Below, in pieces: positions 1,582 through 26,100 of a DNA stretch of 64,000 nucleotides. The stretch is taken from positions 2,344,485 to 2,408,484 of the forward strand of contig NC_134027.1 of NCBI RefSeq assembly GCF_964204645.1, read 5' to 3'. The notes below the pieces were generated by a model. That model saw only the letters and a program-made list of their open reading frames with translations, had not been told where the DNA came from and ran no database searches. Every line of letters begins with the position of its first letter. The stretch's first letter is position 1. Both the position numbers and the translations under genes were made by a program. The stretch comes from Tubulanus polymorphus. Taxonomy: Eukaryota; Nemertea; Palaeonemertea; Tubulaniformes; Tubulanidae.

Positions 1582-1783
1582 ATGATGTCATTAAAGAAAT
1601 TGTTTGTAAAGAATTCGCTCGACAACAATCTTAAATGCAACGACTTGGATATACCGCATAAGATATACGAACAAAATCCGTTCAAAGAAAATCAGCGACG
1701 AAGGAGTAGTATAACTATTGATAAAAAATATCGCGACGATCGCAGGATAAGCATTGTCAGTTCAGGTGGAACTTCGGGCGATT
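1582..1783 (+). CDS. AHCYL2: AHCYL alternative first coding exon A
   Basis: Coding first exon of 67 codons plus one base, from ATG 1582 (an adjacent ATG follows at 1585) to a strong GTAAG donor at 1784. It ends in phase 1, and the leftover T joins CC of the common exon at 23132 to make serine. The encoded N terminus is basic and serine-rich. It contains RRRSS, then DDRRIS and a Ser/Gly stretch just before the junction, so several R-R-x-S type kinase sites precede the conserved [11 protein letters not shown] segment. Spliced to the core, it gives about 521 residues. The intron to the common exon would be 21.3 kb. No homologue of this N terminus is known to me. The assignment rests on the open frame, the start, the donor and the shared phase. 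The start-codon context is only fair. Confidence 0.66.
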
Positions 1784-2122
1784 GTAAGTTTTCTCTTCAT
1801 TCTTATCAAATATTGATTCCAGTTGTTTTTGGCCCACGCACTCAATTTTCAGGATTCTAGATCCTTGGTTATCAGTATCCCAGGTTTGCAGTCAATAAAA
1901 TACAGGAAAGCCCTGACATTTGTTTCTTGTCTAGGTGTTGTTTATTTAGTTGTATTTATAGATTTGTTTAGACACTGTGGTTAATTGCTGTTTTGTTAAT
2001 GGAATGTTTCGAGACCTGATTCTGGTATGGTGTTGTTTTCTGTTTTGATATTGATGAAAATAACTCATTTTTAACAAGTATTTATCCCAGAAATTTGACT
2101 TGTCAAGTGTTTTTCCTTGGCC

Positions 2123-2387
2123 CAGGACCCAGTTACACAGTTCTTATTTAAGATTTGACTCGGAGTTAACTCATTGAAAATGGGCTAATTTTTTTTTTTT
2201 TTAATTTTTTTATTGTTAATCTTATTGTTGATCTTAAAATAGGGATTGTCCCTGTTGTTTATTTGGTTTGTAAATTTCGTTAGATTTTTTGATTGAGTGT
2301 CCCTTACAGACCCACCACACCTGCCGGGAGCGAAACGAACTAATTTTAACTGAGAGTTAACTCTAACTCACAACTGTGGAACTGGAT
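2123..2387. mobile_element. Fold-back element split by a nested retroposon
   Basis: The outer arms (about 2123-2192 and 2340-2387) are inverted copies of a CAGTTCCACAGTT...GAGTTAACTC motif. They match the intact compact copy at 3663-3773. The centre is displaced by an insertion with its own flanking duplication, annotated next. The arms pair over roughly 45 bases with some mismatches. The element is non-autonomous and has no reading frame. Confidence 0.6.
2193..2339 (-). mobile_element. Small retroposon (SINE-like) with 8-bp target duplication
   Basis: The insertion is flanked by CTAATTTT at 2185-2192 and again at 2340-2347. Its left end is a long T run, which is a poly(A) tail when read on the minus strand. 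Its right end (about 2292-2339) carries GTCCCTTACAGACCCACC and CACACCTGCCGGGAGCGAA. The same phrases recur near 61177-61215, so this is a dispersed family. Length without duplications is 147 bases. The T run makes the left duplication partly ambiguous. Confidence 0.55.
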
Positions 2388-3465
2388 CCTTATGTTTTTT
2401 GTTGTTGTTATTTTTCAGTTGATATTTCGGTTGATATGCGTAGTACGCAAAAAGCCTTCAATAATTAATGAAAAACCAATGAATTTTCACAATGAAATAA
2501 CTATCAGTTGTAATTGATGTCATAACACGCGGTATTTCGTATTAATTGATCTCAATTCCCTCATCAACGTATAACCTCGGAGTAATCAGGCTGATTACTC
2601 CAAGGTATAACCTACCACGATAGACAGTTTCATTGATGTGATGACTGTGAAAAACGCAACATTTCTGATCTTGCACAGATATGATTTCGTTGTAACCAGC
2701 CCAGGCATTCGTGTGACACAGTTATATATAATGATACCGTCAGATGGTACAGGTGCTCTTATGACGGTCTCGAAGTGATCAATTTTATATCGGAAAACAA
2801 ACCTCGTGACAGAATATGATGGTAGCCTGTATTATTGAGGAGAGTGGTTTCTGTTTGCTGGATAAACTTACCATTTCTACCCTATGGAAGAATTCCTTTA
2901 CCGAAGTATGAAACCCCACTGGTTTCTTGCGCTTACCGACAACATTCTTGTCGATCTATTTGGAAACGTCTCGCAGCTCTTTCTACGTTTTAGAAATGAT
3001 AATCTATTTCTGGGTGTGGGTAAATGTTGATTTTCTAATTAGGAAAATAGATTTTTATGCACTCAGTAATTGGTTCGAAGTTGTATGCGTATTTATGGTT
3101 GTTTTTCATCGGAGCTTCGCGAATGTCATACTAAACCGACTACTGCTCGTTTGGCATTTGCGAATTTATTCTTGTGATTGCGATAATCCTTTGAATTATC
3201 TGAAATAACTGTCGTTAAGATTTTTGCGGGATTGTGTTTGGCGCGAGTAATAGAACGCAGCAAAGGAAACCCATTAATGACTTGTTTCCCAATGACGCGA
3301 CACTTCACTTTCTAGACAATTAATTTCGGGGAATGTCTATGTTACGATCATTGTTCTGCTGGAAATTACATCAGTTATTTCATGATAAAAAGATTTCGCA
3401 CATAGTACACATCAGTACACATCGGCACAAAATGACAAAAAGTTGACTTACTGCCAAGGTCGAGG

Positions 3466-22519: not shown

Positions 22520-22769
22520 ATGCGCAAAATGTATTTCAACCAGAAGCAGAAAGGAATATTACGAAAAGGAATTAAAGACAGTAACGGCGGAGAAATATCC
22601 ACGGCGAAAAATTATAAAAGTCGTGTAAGAGATCATTACGGAATAGATCATAGGAGTGATAGTGATAGCAATAGTGATGATAGTTATCAGGAAAATGATG
22701 CGTTAGTACCTAGGCGTGTTAGTATCGTAAATAGGAAGACTTGGGACAACCCTGAACTGAGCTGGTGTT
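22520..22769 (+). CDS. AHCYL2: AHCYL alternative first coding exon D
   Basis: First exon of 83 codons plus one base, from ATG 22520 (a second ATG four codons on has better context) to a GTGAGT donor at 22770, phase 1. It joins 23132 with serine. The N terminus is lysine-rich (RKMYFNQKQKGILRKG). It continues with a serine-aspartate run (RSDSDSNSDDS) and then VPRRVS before the junction. Spliced length is about 537 residues. It lies only 362 bases before the common exon. I cannot exclude that it is an internal exon of a longer transcript, but no upstream acceptor is obvious. Confidence 0.66.
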
Positions 22770-23131
22770 GTGAGTATTAGACATGTACCCAGACAGTCTT
22801 GACGAATATCATTAAAATGAACCCACAATATCAATTTAAGCGACGATCAGTTTATTTAATTCGAAAAACTTTGACTTAATGGGTGGAAGGATTTCAACCG
22901 AAACATAGAATGAAAACTATGACATTGTGGATTTCTGCTATAATGATATCGGGTATACTGGTACCCAGACAGACGATTCATGGGGAAGGGCTTTGAGAAT
23001 TCATGACTGAGTGTGACCTTTGAGCCAGTTCTTGATGAAGTCACGTTGTAGATGTATTTCTGCTCGCGGGTTTGTGGCCGTCCTCTTGAGAGATTCCGAG
23101 AAATTCAATTTTTTGTTTTGTATATTTTCAG

Positions 23132-26100
23132 CCTCATATACCGGTAGTTCTTCCGATGAAGAAGACATCAACCCCAGGGAAAAAGAACAGGTATGGAAGG
23201 AATATTTATATCGGCTATTGATTGAATTACCTTGAACGCTTTCCAGTGAAAACAGTTTTCACGGAATCACGATATTACAGATGGGATGATGCATAGCGAA
23301 ATGTTTTTTTTTTTTTCAATTGCGATTTCAGAAAAATTCCAAAGGTAGCTCCGACTTCTGTGTACGAAATATCGAACAACATGCTTACGGTAGAAGAGAA
23401 ATTGAGATTGCGGAACAAGGTATAATTACCGGCCCGTACCCTATAACTACACTAGCCCCCTGAACTTATAGTTATGAACAATGCTGAATTATCACTATTC
23501 AACGACACACTTATCACATACGTAGTTCGCAAATATGTGTGAATTATGGTTTTGAATACATGTCTTCAGTTTGAATTCTCATTTTGTATGATTTACATAA
23601 AATTGCGCACAAAACTCTTCACGTATAAAATCTGTTACATGACGACTGTAATGTACATTCTAATGCTTCATGCTGTATGTATGTTATCATGTCTGCAAGA
23701 AAACTGATCAACCAATTCCTTCTGTTTTCTTAAAATTCTTATATAAATACTGTATAGGCAGTTTGGGTTTTTAGTGTATAGATGACCTGCTTGTTTTGTC
23801 GATCGATATGATAAAGAAAATAGCTGCGTTTCTTAATCGTTTGATAAGCGCTATATTATCCCCTAGTTTTCTGCCTAGTTATAACTGGATTCTCTTGTTT
23901 TTAACTAAACCTTAAATTGACATTTCATCGGGATACGCGACCAGTTTCGATGTCGTAAGATAAGAGATAATACTCCCGATTTCCTGTGTGAAATTAACCG
24001 GTCGAAAATCCCACAATGAATCCAATGAAAAAGATGAAACGTTCTGTTTGATGTGAATATGTATATCTTATAGCCATCATCAGGCGCATACTGATATAGA
24101 ATAGAATTAATACATGATAGATATAGATCATCCTCCCCCGACAGGGATTCGAACCTGATGGCATCGAGATTGCCACGGCACAAAACCCTGCCATAATCGA
24201 CCGTGTGCGCAGATACATGCGCAGTTCAGATGATGTGATTTTTAGCCAATCGGAAATCCCATTTTATTTTAGCCCGGGTTTTCCCATTAATAGTTCTTCC
24301 TTGAAATTTGCCTCAGCCATTATACAACGCGCAATCTGATTGGTGCCGCCAGTTTTCGTTCGGAAAGCTGCGCATGTACCTGCGCACCCGGTCTACTGAT
24401 GCAGGGGTTCGTGCCGTGACTGAGTGTAGCGATGCCATCAGGTTCGAGTCCCTGCAGAGGGAGGATGGATATAGATATAGATATATGTATATATACAAGA
24501 ATAAAACAAAGGCACTAAGTGAGTGATGAGAAAGTTGAAAAGAAACAGTAATAGTAGTTTAAGTAATAGTTATTTAAGACCAGAAACTGCAATAATTAAA
24601 AATGACTTAGAGTAAATTATCGTCAGGTCTATAGTCTATTTTCATATTTTTCCGATTGTTTTGCCCAACGACCAACCACTGAAATGAGTTAGTATTTTGT
24701 AGAGATGCCGGGACTTATGGCTTTACGAAAACGTGCTCAGGAAGATAAACCACTCGGCGGTGCCAAGATAAGTGGATGTACGCACATTACCGCGCAAACA
24801 GCTGTAAGTCTTTCATAGGAAAATTACTGAATTTCACTTTAATTTTTACACCACATCAAAATCAACTCGTCGTTTATGCAGATAGCTAGATAACACTTGA
24901 ACGCATACATAGGAATGGAAAGAACTGCCCGAGGTTTTCTATGAATACTCTTTCTCTATGAAATCGAACTGTTCTATTCAACCACTATTAACGCACTGAT
25001 GATCAATATTCGTATATCATCTGAAAGTATTGCGTGAAAATATCGAGGATTCTAAAGTAAAAGCTGCGTGTATATCTGCTCTTATTATTTGACAATAAGT
25101 CTCAGTGTAGTACAATGCAGGAAGCCAGTCATGGCTGGTATTTCAAATCAGCTTTTTCCTGGAATCGGCTGTTAATGGTTTTATTTACTGCTTTAAATAT
25201 CACACTAGGCACACACTAGGCACACGTGAACTAGGGTTATATGAATGATCATTGACAGATATCTTTATGAATTGTGTTAATAAGTGAAATGAGAATATTC
25301 AAACCAAATATTCCACTGATTCCTCATCCGAGTTCTACGTATATATTTGCTCGCGTTGTGAAGCACGTCTGGTAAGAAGGATTCGTCGGGCTAGACGAGA
25401 CATCTTCAACATGCCACCAGGTCTCATAGTTTCGTGCTACTTGAAGATGCTGTTGTTATGGCAACTGTGCAAAAAGGCAATGTTTTCGGTGGCCTCGTCG
25501 ACAGTTGATAAACACGCAGAAATACACCCAAAACTGATGTCCTATTTGGAGGTGTTCGTGTCGAAATCATGCTACTCTCTACTAGTAATTCGTAAAGCTG
25601 TATAAACTCAAATCTTGTCTTCAATATCAGTCGGTTCTATTTGTTATTGTTGAGTAGCTGTCATCGAAGTGAGTTGATGTAGATTGTATGTACGAGCTTA
25701 GGGCCTTTGATTTGACGATCTAAAGGCTTCCATATAATTGATGTTCATCGACATCAGTTCATCTCATATCCATTGACAAGACTTGAGAGAATGTCAGAGG
25801 AGATTTAACGCGTTATACAATTTGATGTCATGTAGATTTTCGTCGCTTTAAGACGCAGCACTGAATTATTTGCCGTTGTATTTCTAGGTATTAATAGAAA
25901 CCCTGCGTGCTCTGGGTGCACACGTACGATGGGCAGCTTGTAATATTTATTCTACGCAGGTAATTTGAATGATCATCGATGATGAGTGGAAACTGCATAT
26001 TCAGATAAAACAATCATTGGTTTCGATGTTCTTTTGAAATTCTAGAATGAAGTCGCTGCAGCTTTGGCAGAGGCGGGGTTTCCTATTTATGCATGGAAAG

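Follow-up and report, generated by a model that had tools for sequence, protein, structure and literature searches.

Can one gene exchange the regulatory N terminus of its product by the choice of its first exon? The question is raised by a stretch of 64,000 nucleotides from the nemertean Tubulanus polymorphus (contig NC_134027.1, positions 2,344,485 to 2,408,484 of the forward strand; "the window", within which all coordinates below are given unless a contig or locus is named). It holds an AHCYL gene, encoding a protein of the IRBIT type, and four open exons upstream of its shared part (A to D) that all fit the splice acceptor at position 23132. A short, phosphorylated N terminus is the means by which IRBIT proteins tune inositol 1,4,5-trisphosphate (IP3) receptors (IP3R), bicarbonate transporters and further targets. 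With moderate confidence, the locus is read here as a single AHCYL gene in which several predicted alternative first exons are spliced to one phase-1 acceptor. By rough estimates made exon by exon, B is almost certainly a real AHCYL first exon, A very probably so, D probably, and C with slightly less assurance than D.

A single AHCYL gene with a constant core

The complete gene lies on the + strand and comprises 14 shared coding exons, running from 23132 to a stop codon at 29729-29731. All 13 modelled introns between these exons are GT/AG, and a single open frame passes through the 14 exons. Their earliest in-frame Met lies 50 codons in, where the fourth-exon part of the core begins; the N terminus must therefore come from one or more exons farther upstream. 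When compared with structure chains, the core reached 854 bits with 3gvp_A (362 of 430 residues identical, 84%) and 845 bits with 3mtg_A, whereas the best chain of AHCY (S-adenosylhomocysteine hydrolase) reached 562 bits. The first of these chains is listed as Adenosylhomocysteinase 3 (AHCYL2) and the second as putative adenosylhomocysteinase 2 (AHCYL1). By its AHCY-like core the protein is a member of the AHCYL subfamily: it shares a homologous core with AHCY, yet is far nearer to the AHCYL chains and has an additional N terminus. Through the first shared exon, a Ser-rich N-terminal segment is joined to SYT-SS-(D/E) ahead of the core, as judged against the mammalian letters.

A search of the genome (267.8 Mb, 77 contigs) for the AdoHcyase family returned 11 matches in just two places, namely the AHCYL gene described here and an AHCY-like gene at 9.52 Mb on the same contig, 7 Mb away; one AHCYL gene was found. 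Relatives elsewhere comprised 2 loci on viral contigs and 80 prokaryotic loci, retained out of 87, their best segments corresponding to the AHCY core. In 79 of the 80 prokaryotic loci the best segment started from query residue 103 onward, the exception (L042) covering residues 40-172 at 33%.

Four candidate first exons

The coordinates, codon counts, GT donors, phase 1 and common acceptor given for the four ATG-started exons by the original prediction were all confirmed in the sequence (Table 1). Its view of an otherwise constant IRBIT-type protein is supported: one AHCYL gene with a shared core was found, and four coding-like, hydrophilic N-terminal exons fit one acceptor. Several ATG exons that match one acceptor in both frame and phase are what alternative first exons should look like. 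Joined to the 14 shared exons, the exons give predicted full proteins of 521 (A), 543 (B), 494 (C) and 537 (D) residues, each open to the stop. Donors of first exons and shared exons alike were scored with one generic matrix. The scores of A-D (Table 1) fall inside the range of 3.5 to 11.0 bits covered by 12 of the 13 shared-exon donors. The top-scoring donor ahead of the stop within the open reading frame (ORF) is in phase 1 for A, B and C; for D it is tied with a phase-0 GT. In a genome search at E up to 1, each of the N-terminal peptides of A-D matched itself alone, and no retrocopies able to reveal splicing were seen.

An upstream ORF of four codons (ATG AAT TGT AAA TAA, 13587-13601) stops two bases short of the exon B start codon; if part of the leader, it could lower the translation of isoform B. 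Two tandem arrays, of 34 x 18 base pairs (bp) and 44 x 14.8 bp, are located between the AHCYL first exons (Table 1).

Chance expectation

The agreement of phase across the four exons had been valued at a chance of 1 in 27 in the original prediction, a statistic that proved invalid. Among ATG-started ORFs of at least 40 codons whose donor scored 4 bits or more in a 28.4-kb stretch, candidates in phases 0, 1 and 2 numbered 6, 7 and 7 on the + strand and 2, 1 and 2 on the other strand. A set of 200 Markov-resampled sequences contained a mean of 2.98 phase-1 candidates, with four or more in 34% of cases. Phase agreement is uninformative, because candidate numbers are similar in all three phases and a GT in the wanted phase is easily found.

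Composition and donor strength together do support A-D beyond chance, with cut-offs set post hoc. Candidates were required to have a donor score of 5.5 bits or more and a grand average of hydropathy (GRAVY) below -0.6, thresholds that were picked after A-D had been seen. In the real stretch, exactly A-D passed (4 of 5 phase-1 candidates, 0 of 3 in phase 0 and 0 of 3 in phase 2). Of the resampled candidates, 39/873 and 40/829 passed, corresponding to 0.08 per set with a maximum of 2, and four passers were reached in 0 of 500 sets, with the first-order as with the second-order model. Hydrophilicity does not settle the matter by itself: considered without the donor, a GRAVY below -0.69 was found in 6 of 83 ATG ORFs of at least 40 residues on both strands (that of D and five on the minus strand), and four or more such ORFs occurred in 2 of 100 resampled sets.

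When the donor threshold was relaxed to at least 4 bits, 5 of 7 phase-1 candidates (A-D and 6907-7036) were hydrophilic and carried the motif [KR]RxS within their last 21 residues. None of 920 resampled candidates passed this looser test, the motif itself being present in 9 of them. Real controls comprised the other strand, the remaining phases, 34 kb of downstream sequence read on both strands, and 25 kinase loci (164 candidates, 30 hydrophilic); their only passer was the ORF of B itself, read to a phase-0 donor. The candidate fifth exon at 6907-7036 was rejected, since its donor reached only 4.5 bits and 26 to 33% of noncoding ORFs had a higher codon score. For codon scoring, a model was trained on 18 of the 25 kinase loci (L014, L022, L026-L028, L030 and L032 were omitted because of stops or unclear strand) and applied to 227 noncoding ORFs. 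The full score of exons A, B, C and D exceeded that of 95, 98, 100 (rounded) and 92% of these ORFs, and the synonymous score that of 95, 98, 96 and 82%, respectively.

A common origin of A-D by exon duplication was also considered and is not claimed, the levels of comparison being inconsistent. Six exon pairs were compared, with uncorrected p values. Over the last 30 residues, p was 0.010 for A-D, 0.012 for B-D and 0.21 to 0.71 for the remaining four pairs; over whole exons, it was 0.040 for B-D and 0.18 to 0.82 for the others; and for the DNA of the last 120 bases, it was 0.005 for A-C, 0.032 for B-C and 0.26 to 0.995 for the others.

N-terminal motifs

The residue numbers of the mammalian N-terminal letters used in the alignments agree with the cited papers. 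As described in PMC4624786, Ser68 of IRBIT is a priming site for protein kinase D, after which casein kinase I phosphorylates Ser71, Ser74 and probably Ser77, each step requiring a phosphate three residues upstream; Thr82, Ser84 and Ser85 are likewise phosphorylated. According to PMC5173324, binding to IP3R requires phosphorylation at Ser68, 71, 74 and 77, and protein phosphatase 1 (PP1), bound at residues 40-44, has Ser68 as its target. By both papers, the relay and the priming Ser68 are necessary for IP3R binding in mammals (PMC5173324, PMC4624786).

In the shared exon of the worm gene, residues align with IRBIT Ser80, Thr82, Ser84 and Ser85. Exon B contains an RVxF-type (PP1-docking-type) motif, KTVHF, upstream of a relay of the form R79-x-x-S82-x-x-S85-x-x-S88-x-x-S91, in which S91 already comes from the shared exon, as its first Ser, so that the relay crosses the junction. 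When the last 30 residues of B were shuffled, this register was obtained with P = 0.0023, in a test framed after the register had been seen. In exon A, R54, S57 and S60 are spaced from the junction like IRBIT R65, Ser68 and Ser71, a priming-type site thus being present, with Gly at the positions of 74 and 77. Exon C has Ser at the position of 77 only, exon D at none of the relay positions, and the RVxF motif is absent from A, C and D by the pattern used. An end-anchored comparison with the mammalian N terminus gave p = 0.037 for A, 0.090 for B, 0.091 for C and 0.56 for D. Of the four exons, B alone combines an unbroken Ser relay with a PP1-docking-type motif; the variation would accordingly replace the regulatory switch, a point that the original prediction missed.

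A Pfam search gave no match for the N termini of A, C and D and a best E of 0.21 for B, while an Rfam search of the window returned no family. The Pfam result bears on the idea that A or D is part of some other transcript and never joined to AHCYL. The distance of 21 kb from A to the acceptor and the fact that phase agreement by itself proves nothing speak for such an origin, but neither exon has a Pfam match, the long frames in the upstream locus L008 (named by eye) are a minus-strand frame of BTB/zinc-finger-like sequence and a short frame rich in Lys, and A has R, S and S at the junction distances noted above. We consider this origin very improbable.

Promoter hints and competing readings

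The observed-to-expected ratio (o/e) of CpG within 300 bases of the ATG ranked at the 97th percentile among local windows for A, the 89th for B, the 76th for C and the 36th for D. For A and B it amounts to a hint of promoters.

It is conceivable that B, perhaps together with A, is the only real AHCYL first exon and that at C, at D or at both an open frame lies beside a GT by chance. In favour of this, phase agreement carries no information; C is short and has the non-consensus donor GTTGGT; and D combines a low CpG o/e with a donor tied with a phase-0 GT and is outscored in codon use by 8% of noncoding ORFs on the full score or 18% on the synonymous score. Against this, C and D are among the four passers of the joint test, a number that none of the 500 resampled sets holds, and the full codon score of C is exceeded by a fraction of 0.00 of the 227 noncoding ORFs. 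Chance frames at C or D are judged unlikely, with a probability that is well above negligible.

Several observations weigh against the use of four first exons that differ in function. By its CpG o/e, a promoter is unsupported at D and little supported at C, and exon C may be an internal exon. The cut-offs and motifs of the composition tests were selected once the exons were known. The codon model failed its control on the core exons, the gene's own core having a synonymous score of -0.156, compared with -0.167 for noncoding ORFs and -0.044 for one shifted frame of the core; therefore, little weight is placed on its favouring A-D. No significant local alignment with the mammalian N terminus was obtained (p = 0.08 for B, 0.96 for A, 0.64 for C and 0.39 for D), and for this reason the likeness consists in short motifs and their spacing, not in extended similarity. 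Finally, the short vertebrate variants V3 and V4 of Long-IRBIT can mimic IRBIT, as stated in PMC7966362; therefore, an altered N terminus need not alter function.

The alternative for exon C starts from an upstream acceptor at 21533, which is in phase 1 and in frame and reached 6.1 in a simple home-made acceptor score, compared with 6.7 for the shared acceptor 23132 and -0.7 to 7.3 for the other 12 shared-exon acceptors; a weaker in-frame acceptor at 21536 scored 3.3. The resulting exon (21533-21691, 159 nucleotides, phase 1 on both sides) has a length that is a multiple of three and could be an internal cassette after A or B, or a second exon after an untranslated one. The stretch ahead of the ATG of C (DILYPALTVFVT) is hydrophobic, unlike the remainder, and C has its own ATG. 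We regard a cassette as improbable and retain C among the candidate first exons.

Proposed mechanism and comparison with known systems

In the arrangement of alternative first exons favoured here, transcripts begun at different first exons would all splice to 23132. Each first exon would provide its own start codon and a hydrophilic N terminus containing basic residues and Ser, and the protein would be constant beyond the acceptor. Exon B would yield a canonical IRBIT-type regulator with an RVxF-type phosphatase dock, a basophilic priming Ser and an SxxS relay across the junction, the phosphorylation of which would control association with the IP3 receptor and further partners. In the A, C and D forms, the docking site would be gone and the relay broken or removed; in these isoforms, phospho-dependent IP3R binding should be lost and the formation of multimers via the constant core kept. 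We infer from the motifs that first-exon choice exchanges the phospho-switch itself; separate promoters, the use of kinase and phosphatase, and a change of targets would likewise be part of this model. A strict division of roles, in which B is a PP1-docked, relay-competent IP3R regulator and A, C and D are relay-dead and either serve other targets or weaken the action of B when combined with it in multimers, is proposed tentatively and is rather doubtful.

The predicted array is a variant of the known N-terminal diversity of AHCYL2. Vertebrate AHCYL2 (Long-IRBIT) likewise combines differing N termini (V1-V4) from one AHCYL gene with a common AHCY-like core, according to PMC7966362. In the worm gene, by contrast, the four predicted N termini meet one phase-1 junction immediately ahead of the residue equivalent to Ser80, so that what would be exchanged is the docking site and the relay. 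PMC7966362 also describes Long-IRBIT variants with different N termini that differ in stability and targets, the short variants being expressed in a more cell-type-specific manner; these differences support the principle of behaviour that depends on the N terminus. The likeness to AHCYL2 drawn by the original prediction therefore stands, as N-terminal variants are known, whereas its suggestion of an array richer than that of AHCYL2 is unclear in view of V1-V4 (PMC7966362); its interpretation is partly supported. Mammalian IRBIT (AHCYL1) resembles the worm protein in its core and in the docking-type motif and basophilic SxxS relay of isoform B. It differs in that the relay of B is shorter by one three-residue step, A is without the serines of 74 and 77, C and D are without the relay, and the N terminus is without extended sequence similarity.

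Nothing on an invertebrate AHCYL first-exon array was found among the matches listed from an open-licence library of papers, a result that leaves subscription literature mostly outside and does not show that such an array is unpublished. If the switch is indeed exchanged together with the first exon, cells could pick calcium-channel or transporter targets via first-exon choice. On the doubtful division of roles proposed above, one gene would correspond to a repertoire that vertebrates distribute among AHCYL1, AHCYL2 and their variants, perhaps as the more ancient state; a comparison among invertebrates would show whether the vertebrate AHCYL1/AHCYL2 split divided an older single-gene repertoire.

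Other features of the window and the genome

Table 1. Coordinates of the AHCYL exons and of other features in and near the window (slashes mark exon-intron borders; donor scores in bits)
Feature	Position	Strand	Splice site	Remarks
Exon A	1582-1783	+	donor ATT/GTAAGT, 5.8	67 codons + 1 base; ends RRISIVSSGGTSGD
Exon B	13604-13871	+	donor GAT/GTAAGT, 7.8	89 codons + 1 base; KTVHF at residues 15-19; ends RKSSVSSTTSG
Exon C	21571-21691	+	donor CAG/GTTGGT, 6.7	40 codons + 1 base; ends SAKRSS; possibly part of a 159-nucleotide cassette, 21533-21691
Exon D	22520-22769	+	donor GTT/GTGAGT, 5.8	83 codons + 1 base; RRVSIV close to end
First shared exon	23132-23190	+	acceptor TTTTCAG/CC at 23132	first Ser aligns with IRBIT Ser80
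Shared coding exons 2-14 (AHCYL core)	23332-29731	+		C-terminal NYYRY, then TGA
Tandem array	5110-5720			34 x 18 bp
Tandem array	14160-14832			44 x 14.8 bp
Tandem array	54520-54799			47 x 6 bp
Tandem array	59381-60693			42 x 31.3 bp
WD40 exon	34121-34495	+		SEC13-like
AAA ATPase exons	38255-39222	-		m-AAA-protease-like
Ankyrin-repeat exons	56028-56303 and 62900-63127	+
BTB/zinc-finger-like frame, upstream	L008:223-3430	-		by eye

An AHCYL intron (24130-24470) contains two words that resemble a tRNA B box (GGTTCGARTCC), at 24145-24155 (-) and 24441-24451 (+) and thus in opposite orientation, where 0.02 were expected. No tRNA gene was found, and the pair may perhaps represent inverted tRNA-derived short interspersed nuclear elements. 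Two further tandem arrays lie downstream of the gene; the one at 59381 is based on a 21-bp unit and can be read without stops in several frames of both strands. Among the kinase matches, those at C10:8114542 and C36:93057, a pair of a large and a small contig, have identical score and span and are perhaps a leftover haplotig in the assembly.

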